This document shows, one piece after another, positions 2-8,204 of a stretch of 8,204 bases of DNA. Under the pieces are notes generated by a model, which had not been told where the DNA came from, searched no databases, and was given only the letters and a program-made list of their open reading frames with translations. Numbering within the stretch: position 1 is the first letter of the stretch; each line of letters starts with the position of its first letter. Source of the stretch: a bacterium (GTDB taxonomy: Bacteria > ARS69); NCBI GenBank assembly GCA_025774865.1, contig JALGZO010000444.1:1-8204 (forward strand). Direction: 5' to 3'. A program made the translations under genes and the position numbers.

Positions 2-472
2 CAGCCCCTGGAGCTGGTCGAAGGGGAGCTGGGCGTCGCGGGGGAGGCCACGGACCTGTTCGCCGTCTACGACGGTTCCGGCTCCTTCGTCGGTTACGCG
101 ATCACCGGAGAGGGACCGGGCTTCCAGGATACCATCGGGCTCATCTTCGGATTCGATCCGGCGCGGGAGCAGGTCGTCGGGATGCAGGTGCTCGAGAGCC
201 GGGAGACCCCCGGGCTCGGCGACCGAATCTTCAAGGACCCGGAGTTCGTCGCGAGCTTCCGCTCACTCGCGACGCAGCCCGAGATCGTTCTCGTGCCGAA
301 GGGTTCCGGGACCGCGCCGCACGAGGTAGACGGAATCACCGGCGCCACCATTTCCTCGAAGGCCGTCGTGAAGATCCTCAACGCTTCCATCGCCCGGTGG
401 TCCGCCTCCCTACCCGAGCCAGGGGCCGAGCCGCCGCCGCCGCCCACATCCCCGTCCGAACCGGAGGCCTGA
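2..472 (+). CDS. rnfG: Electron transport complex subunit RnfG, 3' part (FMN-binding)
   Basis: Periplasmic-facing flavoprotein subunit of the Rnf complex, which couples electron transfer between ferredoxin and NAD to H+ or Na+ movement. The start lies outside the window; 156 residues and the stop are present. Seen: the family motif ETPGLGDRI (codons from 203) and the flavinylation motif DGITGATISS, where the Thr of GAT (codon 347-349) is the residue that carries FMN by a phosphoester bond in this family. The protein ends in a Pro/Glu-rich tail (LPEPGAEPPPPPTSPSEPEA) that is probably flexible. The stop sits 2 bases before the rnfE start, so the genes are co-transcribed. NqrC is a close relative. 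Rnf is preferred because rnfE and rnfA follow and no nqrF-like gene comes after them. Attachment of FMN needs an ApbE-type flavin transferase, which is not in this window. Confidence 0.93.
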   Translation, partial: QPLELVEGELGVAGEATDLFAVYDGSGSFVGYAITGEGPGFQDTIGLIFGFDPAREQVVGMQVLESRETPGLGDRIFKDPEFVASFRSLATQPEIVLVPKGSGTAPHEVDGITGATISSKAVVKILNASIARWSASLPEPGAEPPPPPTSPSEPEA

Positions 473-1137: not shown

Positions 1138-1715
1138 CCGGGAACGTGTTCTGGATCTTCGTGAGCGCAATGGTCATCAACAACTTCACGCTCACCTATT
1201 TCCTCGGTCTCTGCCCGTTCTTCGGGGTCTCGGGACGACTCGACACTGCGTTCCGACTCGGGCTGGCGAACATCTTCGTGCTCACGATCACGTCGGTCTG
1301 CGCGTGGGCGCTCAACACGTTCGTGCTCGACCACGCGCCGTACCTTCGGCTGATCAGCTTCATCCTCGTGATCGCGAGCACGGTGCAGTTCGTGGAGATG
1401 ACCATCCGGAAGCTCAGCCCGGCGCTCTTCAACGCTCTCGGTATCTTCCTGCCGTTGATCACCACGAACTGCGCGATTCTCGGGCTCGCGCTCTTCCAGA
1501 CGAACCGCGGTTACGGACTCGTTCAAGGCCTCTTCTACGCGTGGGGGGCGGGCGCCGGTCTGACGCTCGCGCTCGTCTTGATGGCGGGCCTGCGCGTCGA
1601 AGGCGAGCTGTCCGACGTTCCCAAGATCGCGAAGGGTACCGCCCTCAATCTCATCATCGCCGGCATTCTGTCGCTCGCGTTCATGGGATTCGCCGGCCTC
1701 TTCGCCGCCACGTGA
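1134..1715 (+). CDS. rnfA: Electron transport complex subunit RnfA
   Basis: Integral membrane subunit of Rnf (RnfA/NqrE family), 193 residues, exactly the typical length. It is related to RnfE with inverted topology and pairs with it around a shared intramembrane Fe-S centre. Seen: Cys27 in FLGLCPFFGVS and Cys113 in ITTNCAILGLALF, the two ligands expected from this subunit. Cys56 is extra and lies in a hydrophobic helix. Start ATG 1134 has GGAGG at 1121-1125 and overlaps the rnfE stop. An upstream in-frame extension to 993 has no family similarity and runs antisense-like through rnfE, so it is discarded. rnfB does not follow rnfA here as it does in clostridial operons. If the complex is complete, rnfB must lie upstream, as in a B-C-D-G-E-A order. 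Confidence 0.95.
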   Translation: MTGNVFWIFVSAMVINNFTLTYFLGLCPFFGVSGRLDTAFRLGLANIFVLTITSVCAWALNTFVLDHAPYLRLISFILVIASTVQFVEMTIRKLSPALFNALGIFLPLITTNCAILGLALFQTNRGYGLVQGLFYAWGAGAGLTLALVLMAGLRVEGELSDVPKIAKGTALNLIIAGILSLAFMGFAGLFAAT

Positions 1716-1724
1716 GGTGACGAG

Positions 1725-1901
1725 ATGACGGACATACTCGCGATTCTCGCCGTGAGCGCCGCCTGCGTCGTCTGGGGGATGTTGCGGGTCCGTACGAACC
1801 GCGCGTCTTGTGGGACGTGCGAGAGTCCCTGCTGCACCGACGACGTCGTCGCGGTTGACGATCAGTCGATCGCCCGGCGAGACTGCGGCGTCCCGGGGTG
1901 A
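1725..1901 (+). CDS. Small single-helix Cys-rich membrane protein following rnfA
   Basis: A 58-residue reading frame, 9 bases after the rnfA stop, with SD-like GAGGTGA (1714-1720) 4 bases before the ATG. Seen: one hydrophobic helix (about residues 4-20, containing Cys14), a basic stretch (RVRTNR, 21-26), then SCGTCESPCC (28-37) giving C-x2-C-x3-CC, an acidic segment and a last Cys53. 48 of 57 codons after the start end in G or C, like the neighbours, so it looks translated. The layout (one helix, then a cytoplasmic Cys cluster) resembles NqrM (DUF539), needed to mature the Nqr iron centre, and FeoB-associated Cys-rich proteins. Neither match is a full motif match. Its position beside the subunits holding the Cys4 iron site suggests iron delivery or assembly for Rnf, which is inference. 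It could also be a metal-binding or redox accessory. Confidence 0.75.
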   Translation: MTDILAILAVSAACVVWGMLRVRTNRASCGTCESPCCTDDVVAVDDQSIARRDCGVPG

Positions 1902-1929: not shown

Positions 1930-2328
1930 GTGAAACGTGTGACCGGGTTGGGGGGCGTCTTCTTCAAGTGCCGAGACCGCGAGTCGACTCTCTCGTGGTA
2001 CCGAGAGCATCTGGGAATCGAATCGGACGAGTGGGGCTTCTCCTTTCGATGGCTGGACAAGGACGACGGGCAGGAGATCGGCTATACGGTGTGGAGTCCG
2101 TTCGCGGACGACACGAGCTATTTCGCGCCCAGTGAGAAACCGTACATGGTCAACTTCCGCGTCGCGAATCTGGAGGAGCTGATTCGGGCGCTGAAGGACG
2201 AAGGAGTCCAGGTCGTCGGCGAGATCAAACAGGAAGAGAACGGCAAGTTCGCGTGGATCCTGGACCCCGAGGGCAACAAGATCGAGCTCTGGGAGCCGGT
2301 CCCGTCCGCGGAGGATCCGTACCTCTAG
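1930..2328 (+). CDS. VOC superfamily (glyoxalase/bleomycin-resistance fold) protein
   Basis: 132 residues, the normal size for a single-chain vicinal-oxygen-chelate protein made of two beta-alpha-beta-beta-beta modules. Module 1 spans about residues 3-57 (GLGGVFFKCRDRESTLSWYREHLGI at its start). Module 2 spans about 72-124 (MVNFRVANLEELIRALKDEG, then AWILDPEGNKIELWEP). Glu119 in KIELWEP is at the conserved metal-ligand position. The strand positions where glyoxalases usually carry a His or Glu ligand hold Gly8/Gly9 and Asn75, so classical metal-dependent glyoxalase I activity is doubtful. Substrate unknown. It starts with GTG and follows the Cys-rich protein after a 28-base gap with no visible terminator, so it may be the last gene of the rnf transcript. 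Whether it serves Rnf or is a passenger cannot be told. Confidence 0.88.
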   Translation: MKRVTGLGGVFFKCRDRESTLSWYREHLGIESDEWGFSFRWLDKDDGQEIGYTVWSPFADDTSYFAPSEKPYMVNFRVANLEELIRALKDEGVQVVGEIKQEENGKFAWILDPEGNKIELWEPVPSAEDPYL

Positions 2329-2522: not shown

Positions 2523-4001
2523 ATGCGGAACGGACTCACCTCTGGGCTCCCGGTACTCGCGCTCGCCGCCATCGTGAGCTGCGGCGACGACTCCGCCGGT
2601 CCCGGTTCGACCGGCACTGACTACGACAGCATCGATCCGATCGTCTTCACCGAACACGTTCAGCCGATCCTCGACGCCAACTGCGGCGTGACGGGTTGCC
2701 ATGCGGGGGCGGAACCCCAAGTCGGACTGGACCTGACGAGTCACGACGGACTCGTCACGGGCAGCCACCACGGCTCGGTGGTCATTCCGTTCCACCCCGA
2801 GCGAAGCCACTTCTATCTCCACGTGTCCGGCGAAGTGCCGCCGCGCATGCCCTTCGAGAGGGATCCGCTGGACGAAGCCGTGGTCGGCTTCTTCGAGAGG
2901 TGGATCACGGAGGGCGCGAAGTACGACGATGGCGTCGTGATGTACGAGGGAGTGTCGCGCAAGGCGTTCGTCGCTTGCCAGGGTGACAACCTGGTCGCCG
3001 TGCTCGACATGGATCCCGCATCTGCCGACCGGGGAAGGGTCATCCGGCTGCTCGACGTCGACGCGCCGCACTCGGTGCACGTCCACGCGCAGTCGAGTCG
3101 TCTCTACGTTTCCCGGTTCGAGACGGCCACGGACAACATCCACGTCTACGACACCGACAGCTACGAGCTCGTCGCCACCGGGCGCGCGGGCACGTTCCCG
3201 GCGCTCATGGACATCACCCCGGACGGGTCGCAGCTCTGGGTCACGAACTTCACCGGGTTCGGCGATGGCGACAACGCGGTGCGGATCCTGGATCCCACGA
3301 CACTCGCAGAGATCGTGGTCGGAGGCATCACCCCGCCCAACGTCCAGCAGCCACACGGTCTGGCGATCGCGCCGTCGGGATCCTTCGTGTACGTCGCGAA
3401 CATCCTGAGTGACGACGTCAGCGTGTTCAGCCAGTCGGACCCGTTCAATCTCCAGGTCGTGAAGCTCCCGCTCTGGGGCGGCAGCGGTCTTCAGCAACCC
3501 CAGCAGTGCATCCTGTCTCCTGACGAAGAGTACCTGTACGTCACGGCGCAGGGATCGAACCGGGTCTACGTGATGCGGACTTCGGATCACACGTTCGTCG
3601 AGAGCGCGACGGTGGAGGTGGGAGAGGCTCCGTGGCACCTCGCACACTCGCCCGTCGGCGCCCGCCCCGAGGTCTGGGTCGCGAACTGGTTCGGCGAAAG
3701 CGTGACCGTCATCAACGTCGCGAACCCGGAGAGTCCGGTGGTGGCGGCCACGCTCGCGCCGATGGGCCCGATGGGCATGGGGCCGGCCATCGAGCGACCG
3801 ATCGGGATCGCGTTCACTCCCGACGGCAGCCGGGTCTACGTGGCGAACGCGAACGACGACGAAGGGGGCTCCGGACATCATCCGCCTCCCACCGGCACGA
3901 AGGAACCGGGCTCGGTCGCCATCTTCGACGCGGACACGCGGGAAGTCCTGATGGTGACCGAGGTACCCAATTTCGCCCGCTTCATCAGCTTCTTGCCGTG
4001 A
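2523..4001 (+). CDS. Lipoprotein: planctomycete-type cytochrome c domain fused to YVTN-type beta-propeller
   Basis: 492 residues, exported and probably lipid-anchored: a short hydrophobic signal ends in the lipobox IVSC (Cys20), followed by a Gly/Ser/Asp-rich linker. Residues about 40-133 look like a planctomycete cytochrome c domain (VFTEHVQPILDANC...GCH). The heme site is C54-GVTG-C59-H60, i.e. C-x4-CH rather than CxxCH, with Met109 in PPRMPF as the probable distal ligand. Residues about 145-490 form a YncE/YVTN-type propeller, about seven blades, with repeated 'S/DG..(V/L)YV.N...V.V(F/I)' units (LWVTNF 238, VYVANI 289, LYVTAQ 338, VWVANW 384, VYVANA 438). Such propellers bind proteins, ligands or heme d1; catalysis is not evident. 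GAGG lies 5 bases before the ATG. The stop overlaps the next gene's SD, so both genes form one unit. Likely role: periplasmic or surface electron transfer. Confidence 0.85.
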   Translation: MRNGLTSGLPVLALAAIVSCGDDSAGPGSTGTDYDSIDPIVFTEHVQPILDANCGVTGCHAGAEPQVGLDLTSHDGLVTGSHHGSVVIPFHPERSHFYLHVSGEVPPRMPFERDPLDEAVVGFFERWITEGAKYDDGVVMYEGVSRKAFVACQGDNLVAVLDMDPASADRGRVIRLLDVDAPHSVHVHAQSSRLYVSRFETATDNIHVYDTDSYELVATGRAGTFPALMDITPDGSQLWVTNFTGFGDGDNAVRILDPTTLAEIVVGGITPPNVQQPHGLAIAPSGSFVYVANILSDDVSVFSQSDPFNLQVVKLPLWGGSGLQQPQQCILSPDEEYLYVTAQGSNRVYVMRTSDHTFVESATVEVGEAPWHLAHSPVGARPEVWVANWFGESVTVINVANPESPVVAATLAPMGPMGMGPAIERPIGIAFTPDGSRVYVANANDDEGGSGHHPPPTGTKEPGSVAIFDADTREVLMVTEVPNFARFISFLP

Positions 4002-4014: not shown

Positions 4015-5316
4015 ATGACGCGATGGTCTGACAGAATCGGAATGTTCCTCGTCGCGGGAACGGTCGGTCTCGTGATGGCCACCGGCTGCGGCGAGGACGG
4101 CATGACCGGAACGAACGGGGACGCGGAGAATGTACCGCCAGCGTTCGCGTCGGCCGCTTCGTGCGGCGGCTGCCACCCCGAGCAATTGGCGGAATGGGAA
4201 ACGTCGCGTCACGCGTATTCCAGTGCGGACCCCGTCATGCATCGCCTCGCCGAGATCGCCGGCGCGGAGATCAAGGAGGTCTGCAAGGAGTGCCACGCGC
4301 CCGCGCAGCAACGGATGGAGAGGCTCCTGGCGATCGGGAAGGGCGATCCCTCCGTGGATCTCTCGAAGGACGGAACGAACTGCGACGTCTGTCACTCGAT
4401 CTCCGACATCCCGCCCGTGGCCACGGCGGCGTTCATCGGTCACATCGATCCGACCGGGCCGAAGTACGCGAACATGCCGCAGGTGATCGAGACCTCGGCT
4501 CACGCCTCCGAACGCCGGGAGTGGTACGGAACATCGATCGCGTGCGCGTCCTGCCACCAGTTCGACCTGGCCGACGGAACGAACCTCGAGAACACGTTCA
4601 TCGAGTGGGAAGCGACGAACCTGGCCGGCATGGGGTTCCAGTGTCAGTCCTGCCACATGCCGCTCTACGACGGCCGCGCCGCCGAGGGTGGACCGTGGCG
4701 GGAGGGCCTCCACCGCCATCGGATGGTCGGAGTGGACTACGCCTACGAGGAGTTCCGGGGCATCAATCTCGAGCAGCAGAAGGAGGACGTCCGCCAGCTC
4801 CTGGAGAACTCGGTCTCCGTCACCACGAGCGTCCCGACCTCGGTCACGGCGGGCTCGACCCTCACGTTCGACATCACGGTGCTGAACGATAAGACGGGTC
4901 ACTCGATCCCGTCGGGAGTCTCGTTCGCGCGCGAGATGTGGATCTCGGTGCGCGTGACGGACGGAGGCGACGCGGTCGTGTACGAGTCCGGTCAGCTCGC
5001 TTCGAACGACGATCTCATCCACGACGCGGACCTCACGACGTTCTCCGCTCAGATGTACGACGCCGCGGGAGCGCCCACGGGGTTCGCGTGGCTGGCGGCC
5101 TCGATCGACGAGGCGGGTCTTCTGAAATACCTGGAGAGCCGGACGGCCACGTACGAGTTCTCGGCCCCCGACCAGTCCGGTCAGCTCACGATGGAGCTCG
5201 CCCTCCGGTTCCGTTCCCTGGCGCCGGGAGGTCTGCGGGATCTGGGCCTGGACCGGATTCTGCCGATCGAGGTCTTCGACATGTGGACGGAGACGGTTCA
5301 GGTCACGGTGCTGTAG
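4015..5316 (+). CDS. Five-heme c-type cytochrome lipoprotein
   Basis: 433 residues. The signal peptide (about 1-24) ends in ATGC with Cys25 as likely lipidation site; Ala at -3 makes the lipobox slightly atypical. Five CxxCH heme sites: CGGCH (50), CKECH (90), CDVCH (123), CASCH (177), CQSCH (210). Their surroundings (EWETSRHAY, DGTNCDVCHS, CQSCHMPLY, HRHRMVGVD) are those of cytochrome c554-like and related multiheme cytochromes, where extra His residues (e.g. H66, H76, H233, H235) act as distal ligands. Residues about 265-433 form a heme-free, beta-rich domain containing NDKTGHSIPSG (291-301), like the 'GHxxPTG' segment seen in the C-terminal part of many multiheme cytochromes. It probably passes electrons in the periplasm or at the outer membrane, with the co-transcribed monoheme propeller protein as a likely partner. 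No catalytic site (e.g. CxxCK) is seen. Confidence 0.9.
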   Translation: MTRWSDRIGMFLVAGTVGLVMATGCGEDGMTGTNGDAENVPPAFASAASCGGCHPEQLAEWETSRHAYSSADPVMHRLAEIAGAEIKEVCKECHAPAQQRMERLLAIGKGDPSVDLSKDGTNCDVCHSISDIPPVATAAFIGHIDPTGPKYANMPQVIETSAHASERREWYGTSIACASCHQFDLADGTNLENTFIEWEATNLAGMGFQCQSCHMPLYDGRAAEGGPWREGLHRHRMVGVDYAYEEFRGINLEQQKEDVRQLLENSVSVTTSVPTSVTAGSTLTFDITVLNDKTGHSIPSGVSFAREMWISVRVTDGGDAVVYESGQLASNDDLIHDADLTTFSAQMYDAAGAPTGFAWLAASIDEAGLLKYLESRTATYEFSAPDQSGQLTMELALRFRSLAPGGLRDLGLDRILPIEVFDMWTETVQVTVL

Positions 5317-5328
5317 AGAGGCGGCCGG

Positions 5329-6852
5329 TCACTTTCGATACCTCGCCTTGATCGACGCCCAGCTCGCGGCCTCGACGGCCGTGACGCAATCGTTCGAGTA
5401 GGCGACCCCGATCAACTGTCCACAGGGGCTGTTCCCCGGAGCGCAGGGTGACTGCGCTGTCACCGCGAAAGCCCGGCCGGGGAGATCGCAGAATCCGGGG
5501 GGAGCGTCGATGTTGTCGTTCAGGCCGGCTTGGTCCGCAACGCAGTCCACGTAGTCGCCTCCGGCGTTTCCGAAGAGATCGCAGCAGGAGAGTGCGAGGC
5601 TGCCCGGAAGGGAGAACTCGCTGCACTGGACCGCGGCACCTCCTGCTCCCAAAGCGATGATCGTTCGGTCCACGGATACGGAGCCGACGCCGGCGCCGAT
5701 GAGGATGCCGCTCCCGAGGCTCGCTTCGTTTCGCACCAAGGTGCATCCGGAAACCGTCGTGTTCGCGGCGGCATACAACGCTCCTCCTCCGGCCGTTCCG
5801 TCCGCGGACGTGCTGACGTTGTCGACGAAGAGACAGCCGGCAATCGTGTAGCTCCCGACGCCGGTCAGGAAGAGGCCGCCGGCCCCAAACGCGGAGTTCC
5901 CCTTGAACTCGGACGAGACCAGTTCCGCGACGCCCTCCCCCACGATGTAGGCCGCGCCACCGAGACCACCGCCGTTCGTGCGGTTGCCCGTGAACGTGCA
6001 CGCGCGAACGTCGACCGACCGGAGCGAGAACACCGCTCCGCCGCTGGTGGCCGCCACGTTGCCCTCGAATCGGCAGCCTTCGATCGAAGCCGCCGACGCG
6101 ACCGCCGGAAACGGAGCCTCGAAGTAGACGCCGCCGCCGCTGTCGTTGGCGGTCGGGCTCTCGTCGACCCGGTTGTTCGTGAACGCGCTGCCGGTGATCG
6201 AGACCGGATCAGGACTCCGTACGTACACGGCCCCTCCCTTCTCGAGGAGCGCACGACAGCCGTCGAACGTGCAGTCCTGGATGCTCACGGTGCCGTCGAG
6301 GTACGCGGCGCCTCCTCGCTGGGCCGTGTTCGCGAGCCGAAACGTGCAGCTCCAGATGTTCGTGGACCCGCCCTCCGAGAGGATCGCCCCGCCGTTCCCA
6401 GAGGCGACGCAATCCTCGAAGATGCAGTTTCGGATCGTCGCGGCGAAACCGGCGTCCGAGGCCCCCAGGAACAGGGCTCCACCCGAGTCGCTGCGGCCCC
6501 CGCGGAAGGTGAATCCGTCGATCGTCACGGCGGCGGCGGGGTGCCCACTCGCGAAGAAGCCCGCGCGCGTGCTCGCGAGGCCGTCCAGAACGGTTCCCGC
6601 GGAGCCGGCCTCGGATCGAATGACGATTTCCTGACCGTCGAGCTGGACGTCCGTGAAGCCGGGACCGGCGTACGTGCCCGCGGCGACGAGCACCGTGTCC
6701 CCCGCCGCGGCGATCGAGATCGCATCCGAGATCGTCGGGCTCTCGCCGGGAACACGGATGGTCTGGGCCGCTTCCGTCGGAAGCGCCGCGATCAGGGCGA
6801 GGAGGAACGCTGCAGGTCTCGTGGGAGAACGTCGGGCGGAGCGAGGATTCAC
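5329..6852 (-). CDS. Secreted right-handed beta-helix protein with Pmp-like GGA/FxxN repeats
   Basis: 507 residues, start GTG at 6852. A signal peptide is evident (basic 1-12, hydrophobic 13-24, likely cleavage near EAAQ, 27-30). Residues 34-61 are a typical beta-helix entry: PGESPTISDAISIAAAGDTV, then LVAAGTY. About nine rungs carry GGA/GGG plus a hydrophobic residue (125, 154, 180, 206, 239, 271, 298, 325, 356), alternating with FxxN/FxxC (FEDC 145, FDGC 196, FTNN 224, FEGN 262, FTGN 287, FKGN 316, FVDN 342). This is the repeat pair known from chlamydial Pmp adhesins, but no autotransporter barrel follows. The C-terminus has a Cys-rich segment (GFCDLPGRAF...SPCAPGNSPCGQLIGV) and a basic tail, SWASIKARYRK. 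Probable role: cell-surface or secreted adhesion or glycan binding. No catalytic residues can be named. It is convergent with the cytochrome gene, 12 bases apart. Confidence 0.87.
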   Translation of the reverse strand: MNPRSARRSPTRPAAFLLALIAALPTEAAQTIRVPGESPTISDAISIAAAGDTVLVAAGTYAGPGFTDVQLDGQEIVIRSEAGSAGTVLDGLASTRAGFFASGHPAAAVTIDGFTFRGGRSDSGGALFLGASDAGFAATIRNCIFEDCVASGNGGAILSEGGSTNIWSCTFRLANTAQRGGAAYLDGTVSIQDCTFDGCRALLEKGGAVYVRSPDPVSITGSAFTNNRVDESPTANDSGGGVYFEAPFPAVASAASIEGCRFEGNVAATSGGAVFSLRSVDVRACTFTGNRTNGGGLGGAAYIVGEGVAELVSSEFKGNSAFGAGGLFLTGVGSYTIAGCLFVDNVSTSADGTAGGGALYAAANTTVSGCTLVRNEASLGSGILIGAGVGSVSVDRTIIALGAGGAAVQCSEFSLPGSLALSCCDLFGNAGGDYVDCVADQAGLNDNIDAPPGFCDLPGRAFAVTAQSPCAPGNSPCGQLIGVAYSNDCVTAVEAASWASIKARYRK

Positions 6853-8009: not shown

Positions 8010-8204
8010 CTGAGCCGCCTCCTGATTCTCGCCACCGCGTACGCGTTTTCGGTCCCCGGCGTGGGCACGGCCGCCACGTGGGTGATCACTCCCGACGGCC
8101 TCGGCAACGCCCCCACGATCCAGGCCGGGATCGACTCGGCTGCGGCCGGAGATACGGTGCTCGTCTCGTGCGGAACGTATTTCGAGCATGACATCGCCAT
8201 GAAG
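8010..8204 (+). CDS. Secreted beta-helix protein, N-terminal fragment (runs off the window)
   Basis: 65 codons are present and open to the window end. The frame begins with SRLLILATAYAFSVPGVGTA, a signal-peptide-like hydrophobic stretch, then TWVITPDGLGNAPTIQAGID and SAAAGDTVLVSCGTYFEHDI. The APTIQAGI.SAAAGDTVLV..GTY segment is the entry to a right-handed beta-helix and matches the same segment of the minus-strand beta-helix protein in this window (SPTISDAI..AAAGDTVLV..GTY), so the two are distant paralogs. The start is odd. The frame opens after a stop at 7965-7967 with no ATG/GTG/TTG before the signal peptide; CTG 8010 behind GGGAG is the best site. An ATG at 7991 is in a different frame, so a one-base error or frameshift is the alternative. 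GTG 8061 would remove most of the signal peptide. Confidence 0.75.
   Translation, partial: MSRLLILATAYAFSVPGVGTAATWVITPDGLGNAPTIQAGIDSAAAGDTVLVSCGTYFEHDIAMK

Follow-up and report, generated by a model that had tools for sequence, protein, structure and literature searches.

Directly downstream of rnfA in the window, by which we mean the whole 8,204-nt stretch of DNA that was analyzed, lies a gene for a 58-residue protein with one helix and a cysteine-bearing tail. This small open reading frame (ORF) was confirmed to be a genuine, conserved gene, and its family falls outside the protein-family databases searched. A role as an accessory protein for the membrane iron site of RnfA/RnfE is proposed below.

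The small gene and its operon

The features of the window are given in Table 1. The product of the small ORF (58 codons; MTDILAILAVSAACVVWGMLRVRTNRASCGTCESPCCTDDVVAVDDQSIARRDCGVPG), provisionally named CysM/RnfM-like, begins at an ATG located 9 nt past the rnfA stop codon, and a GAGGTG ribosome-binding-like site overlaps the rnfA stop region. The sequence contains one hydrophobic segment, and its cysteines are arranged as C29-x2-C32-x3-C36-C37 with a distal C54, an additional Cys14 being located within the helix (approximately residues 3 to 21). ORFs were judged by codon scoring; greedy longest-ORF calling was misled at high G+C. The codon score of the small ORF relative to other frames was positive, at +11.8 log-odds. 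The first-pass annotation had described a one-helix Cys protein 9 bases after rnfA with its own Shine-Dalgarno sequence and host-like codon use, and the ORF, hydropathy, spacing, upstream GAGGTG, and codon score all agree with that description. An AlphaFold prediction from the single sequence produced one helix (residues 3-21) and nothing else structured, at low confidence (pLDDT 51).

Table 1. Coordinates of features in the window and the evidence for each
Feature	Position	Strand	Evidence
rnfG, 3' part	2..472	+	PF04205, E=1.7e-15; FMN-binding domain
rnfE, 220 aa	475..1137	+	PF02508, E=7e-61
rnfA, 193 aa	1134..1715	+	PF02508, E=1e-51
rnfA stop and 9-nt spacer	1713..1724	+	Sequence, spacing
Small Cys protein gene	1725..1901	+	ORF, codon bias, conservation in 22 members, chance test, model
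VOC/glyoxalase-family gene, downstream	1930..2328	+	PF00903, E=1e-6
Beta-propeller lipoprotein, upstream of the cytochrome gene	2523..3998		PSCyt1 domain
Putative lipoprotein c-type cytochrome	4015..5313		Five CxxCH motifs
Secreted beta-helix-like repeat protein	5332..6852	-	
Second beta-helix-like repeat protein, start	8061..8204		At window end

Since the contig starts inside rnfG, rnfC, rnfD, and anything further upstream are not visible in the window genome. The rnfG sequence contains the flavinylation-type motif DGITGATISS. In relatives with enough sequence, the gene order was rnfB, 2-oxoacid:ferredoxin oxidoreductase, rnfC-D-G-E-A, the small gene, and then a variable gene, while canonical operons mostly have rnfB after rnfA. 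The arrangement of rnfB, oxidoreductase, and rnfCDGEA was observed in loci L029 and L147 to L162, some of which end with an FAD/NAD oxidoreductase gene, and in L029 the operon contains a fused oxidoreductase of 1655 aa. The VOC/glyoxalase-family gene of the window is not conserved beside the small gene, and the neighbors in relatives differ: the next gene was apbE in 9 of 22 loci and an FAD/NAD oxidoreductase gene in 5 of 22, the others being FNR or unrelated. No apbE was found within 1.5 kb 3' of rnfA at any of 95 loci outside the clade described below.

Conservation and distribution of the family

The window's phylum comprised only five genomes, and a domain-wide sample of 386 genomes was therefore searched for RnfA. 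Matches were obtained in 124 genomes, and the RnfA loci were then fetched. A tree of 120 RnfA sequences placed 26 of them in a single clade of the window type (SH-aLRT 100) and 94 outside it. The conserved family directly 3' of rnfA that the first-pass annotation had suggested looking for was found: a one-helix Cys protein of 47 to 89 residues is encoded after rnfA in 22 of the 26 clade members, and every carrier falls within the clade. No such gene was detected downstream of the other 94 RnfA sequences. Presence of the gene required 4 changes on the RnfA tree, compared to 20.5 in shuffles, a number that fits a single gain and three losses. The carriers belong to 18 genera in 10 families and span at least four phyla according to the phylum searches, namely those of G000 (the window's genome), G240, G057, and G184. 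A lack of homologs next to rnf would have been counted against the gene in the first-pass annotation. Such homologs were present in at least three phyla besides the window's own and, within the latter, in every genus that has rnf of this clade; as called, the family ORFs are free of stops and frameshifts.

In four members of the clade that share this operon (L147, L148, L149, and L150), the 14 to 16 kb fetched contained no such ORF, and none of the gaps within these operons holds it. As the gene is absent from these four operons and from all sampled Rnf loci outside the clade, it is deduced not to be a general Rnf requirement.

All 22 members show by hydropathy an N-terminal helix and a Cys-rich tail. 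The anatomy is a single N-terminal helix containing Trp, followed by Cys-x2-Cys-x(n)-Cys, and the alignment gives the consensus helix-W-x-x-V-Q...C-x2-C-x(n)-C at a mean identity of 24%. The first Cys is the sole invariant one, while conservation of Trp17 and Cys54 is 90% or higher. The number and spacing of the cysteines differ among members, and one (L034) is without the distal Cys. The C-x2-C-x3-CC motif emphasized in the first-pass annotation is accordingly present in the window member but is peculiar to it, not the conserved pattern of its 22 relatives. Positively charged residues are usually found after the helix and seldom before it, although several members have few of them. In 8 of the 22 loci the gene overlaps rnfA by 4 nt, an arrangement suggestive of frequent translational coupling.

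The ORF was compared with chance expectation by means of a fixed filter (38 to 100 aa, a helix, at least three Cys after the helix, and a start within 130 nt of the gene end). This was passed by 17 of 234 ORF ends tested, all 17 being rnfA ends, and in dinucleotide-shuffled downstream DNA it was passed in 1 of 2000 trials. The filter also flagged three canonical loci (L103, L106, and L115), where the ORF was a short RnfB with NCGACG or a variant. The RnfB encoded directly after rnfA at these three loci is 94 to 95 aa long and has only the helix and the first Fe-S motif, the ferredoxin domains being absent. When the 386 genomes were searched with a profile of the family, 16 places matched, 15 of them directly 3' of rnfA. 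The sixteenth (G137), considered as a possible out-of-place copy, was rejected as a spurious reading frame on the strand opposite a glycogen-phosphorylase-like gene. Since the profile was made from the members themselves, the search is in part circular, and what it shows is that the family was not found elsewhere in these genomes. When 84,980 genomes were searched with the window protein alone, two 21-residue matches were returned, both in Asanoa.

Nonsynonymous drift had also been named in the first-pass annotation as evidence that would tell against the gene. Within one genus, dN/dS was 0.31 to 0.39 in two pairs and 1.3 in another pair that had just 6 differences, which makes for a weak test. 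For rnfA, the corresponding values of 0.01 to 0.02 indicate far stronger constraint. The small protein is therefore deduced to be fast evolving, and the substitution test adds little.

Comparison with known families

The first-pass annotation had likened the protein to NqrM, and the resemblance is one of layout. Like NqrM (PF04400, DUF539), it is small, with a single N-terminal helix and a Cys-rich tail; the two genes stand at the 3' ends of homologous operons, frequently accompanied by apbE, and the target sites are homologous (NqrD/E and RnfA/E). The nqr-apbE-nqrM order in Vibrio is echoed by the apbE that comes next to the rnf small gene in 9 of 22 loci. Kinship, however, found no backing. 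None of the 22 members matched PF04400 at E<=10, a threshold at which the NqrM proteins of G000 and G002 do match, and an hhalign comparison with a two-sequence NqrM alignment, rejected as evidence of homology, gave a probability of 25% over 16 columns. The small protein lacks the RRPLxGSCGG signature seen in the NqrM of the window's own genome, its cysteines follow C-x2-C-x(n)-C rather than CGG..CxxC..C, and its gene is linked to rnf, directly 3' of rnfA, not to nqr. The protein would be NqrM-like in its working, but homology to NqrM is not supported by these sequence comparisons. The idea that it serves lineages without a known iron donor agrees with the finding of no NqrM in 17 of 19 carrier genomes but is wrong for the window's own genome, one of the two with NqrM (PF04400 in G000 and G002), where NqrM with a GSCGG motif is encoded on contig C704 alongside nqrE and then nqrF. 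The window genome has two further complexes of this superfamily, a canonical rnf on contig C677 (rnfA then rnfB; L013) and the nqr with NqrM on C704 (L016, L026).

In Pfam and NCBIfam no member reached a cut-off, and NCBIfam gave nothing consistent. The nearest model and sole recurrent Pfam match was the FeoB-associated family PF12669, matched by 4 of 22 members at E<=10 (best E 9e-4). The window protein scored 19.2 bits (E 0.0014) against a curated cut-off of 27. With no PF04400 match and PF12669 below its cut-off, the profile comparison that had been suggested at the outset indicates that the protein is neither an NqrM nor a certified PF12669 member. PF12669 proteins are likewise small, with one helix and a C-terminal Cys motif, and are thought to handle iron. 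The small gene differs in lying beside rnfA, not feoB, in all true profile matches among the 386 genomes.

The N-terminal segment of RnfB (PF04060) also has a helix and then a Cys motif, and the RnfB gene directly follows rnfA in canonical operons. None of the 22 members contained the NCGxCG motif or matched PF04060 (NCGxCGxxGC), however, and the true rnfB was found separately in the same operon. FeoC is comparable as a small, poorly conserved accessory protein with a Cys-rich motif and a gene at the operon end, but is cytoplasmic and without a membrane helix. A search of solved structures with the family profile gave nothing below E 0.9.

Proposed role

Cys25/Cys113 of RnfA and Cys26/Cys109 of RnfE have been named as the metal site (PMC9588780). 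Cys27 and Cys113 of the window RnfA align with Cys25 and Cys113 of Clostridium tetanomorphum RnfA (7zc6_A), Cys30 and Cys113 are conserved in the window RnfE, and the four ligands are essentially invariant in the clade. Two further cysteines were observed. Cys56 of RnfA (gene 1134-1712) is present in 17 of 22 carriers, in 1 of 4 noncarriers, and in no RnfA outside the clade; its association with the small gene within the clade gave a Fisher p=0.07, uncorrected for relatedness. RnfE Cys148 (gene 475-1134) occurs at a frequency of 0.55 in the clade and 0.05 outside it. In the clade operons without the small gene, RnfA position 56 is Phe in two (same genus) and Ser in one.

We hypothesize, with about an even chance of being right, that the protein is anchored in the membrane and dedicated to RnfA/RnfE as an iron or Fe-S accessory protein, NqrM-like in action. 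The maturation idea of the first-pass annotation is plausible. The single N-terminal helix would anchor the protein in the inner membrane, and the Cys tail would lie in the cytoplasm, because positive charges usually follow the helix (positive-inside rule). The protein might then bind metal and deliver it to RnfA/E, both steps being inferred. ApbE is responsible for covalent FMN loading on RnfG/RnfD and often adjoins the small gene, and it is therefore proposed that the 3' end of the operon forms a cofactor-loading cassette. An accessory role is favored by the position directly after rnfA and by the apbE neighbor. Also counted in its favor were the clade restriction (22/26 versus 0/94), the confinement of filter-passing ORFs and of true profile matches to rnfA, the essentially invariant RnfA/E ligands, RnfA Cys56, and the rarity of NqrM among carrier genomes (found in 2 of 19). 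Caution is called for by the gene's absence from four clade members and by the variable Cys spacing, and the lack of detectable NqrM homology and the weak selection in one genus were counted against it. In NQR, nqrABCDEF-apbE-nqrM is one unit, and NqrM is apparently needed for the intramembrane [2Fe-2S] center (PMC12174285, PMC6209661).

The same strict adjacency to rnfA, with its frequent coupling, would also suit a stoichiometric small subunit whose helix packs on RnfA/RnfE and whose Cys tail, holding a cluster or a disulfide, serves electron transfer or stability. The gene occupies the canonical slot of rnfB, which likewise encodes one helix with Cys, and both RnfA and RnfE have the extra clade-specific Cys. 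RnfB is still encoded upstream in the clade operons, however, four of these operons do without the small gene, and variable Cys spacing at 24% mean identity is unusual for an electron-carrying subunit; we consider this explanation unlikely. A somewhat smaller likelihood is given to a general membrane iron or metal peptide of the PF12669 kind, recruited to the operon and serving cellular iron supply rather than Rnf specifically. PF12669 was indeed the best Pfam match, and its similar helix and Cys-motif layout is commonly associated with iron binding (PMC8749426), but every match was below the curated cut-off and, in the 386 genomes searched, the profile found the family solely beside rnfA.

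Action on another product of the operon (the ferredoxin oxidoreductase, RnfB, or a diaphorase-like neighbor), perhaps by tethering it to the membrane or by sensing redox state, was deemed very improbable. In most carriers the upstream part of the operon does include rnfB and 2-oxoacid:ferredoxin oxidoreductase genes, and some have an FAD/NAD oxidoreductase gene downstream, yet rnfA is the only constant neighbor. Finally, spurious ORFs are common in high-G+C DNA and the ORF of the window is a short, divergent member of the family, so that a functionless chance ORF had to be considered. Given the recurrence of the helix and Cys ORF in the clade across carriers of about 45 to 68% G+C, the single pass in 2000 shuffles, and the failure of all other ORF ends to pass the filter, this notion is hardly credible and may be regarded as already refuted by conservation.

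Among the energy-conserving pumps of anaerobes, Rnf is a major one, and confirmation of its intramembrane [2Fe-2S] center is recent. In the literature searched, which covered the relevant papers incompletely, no protein was named as inserting this center. NQR uses NqrM, and the clade-wide, rnfA-linked one-helix Cys gene is a concrete candidate inserter for the Rnf center. Somewhat more tentatively than the accessory role itself, we suggest that this unrecognized family may be the first dedicated Rnf maturation factor, which would have arisen in one clade linked to 2-oxoacid:ferredoxin oxidoreductase and having an extra membrane Cys in RnfA, as an equivalent of NqrM by independent origin. The small gene marks a type of Rnf operon suited to asking if the cluster depends on a helper, a dependence that may have been brought about by the extra Cys in RnfA.
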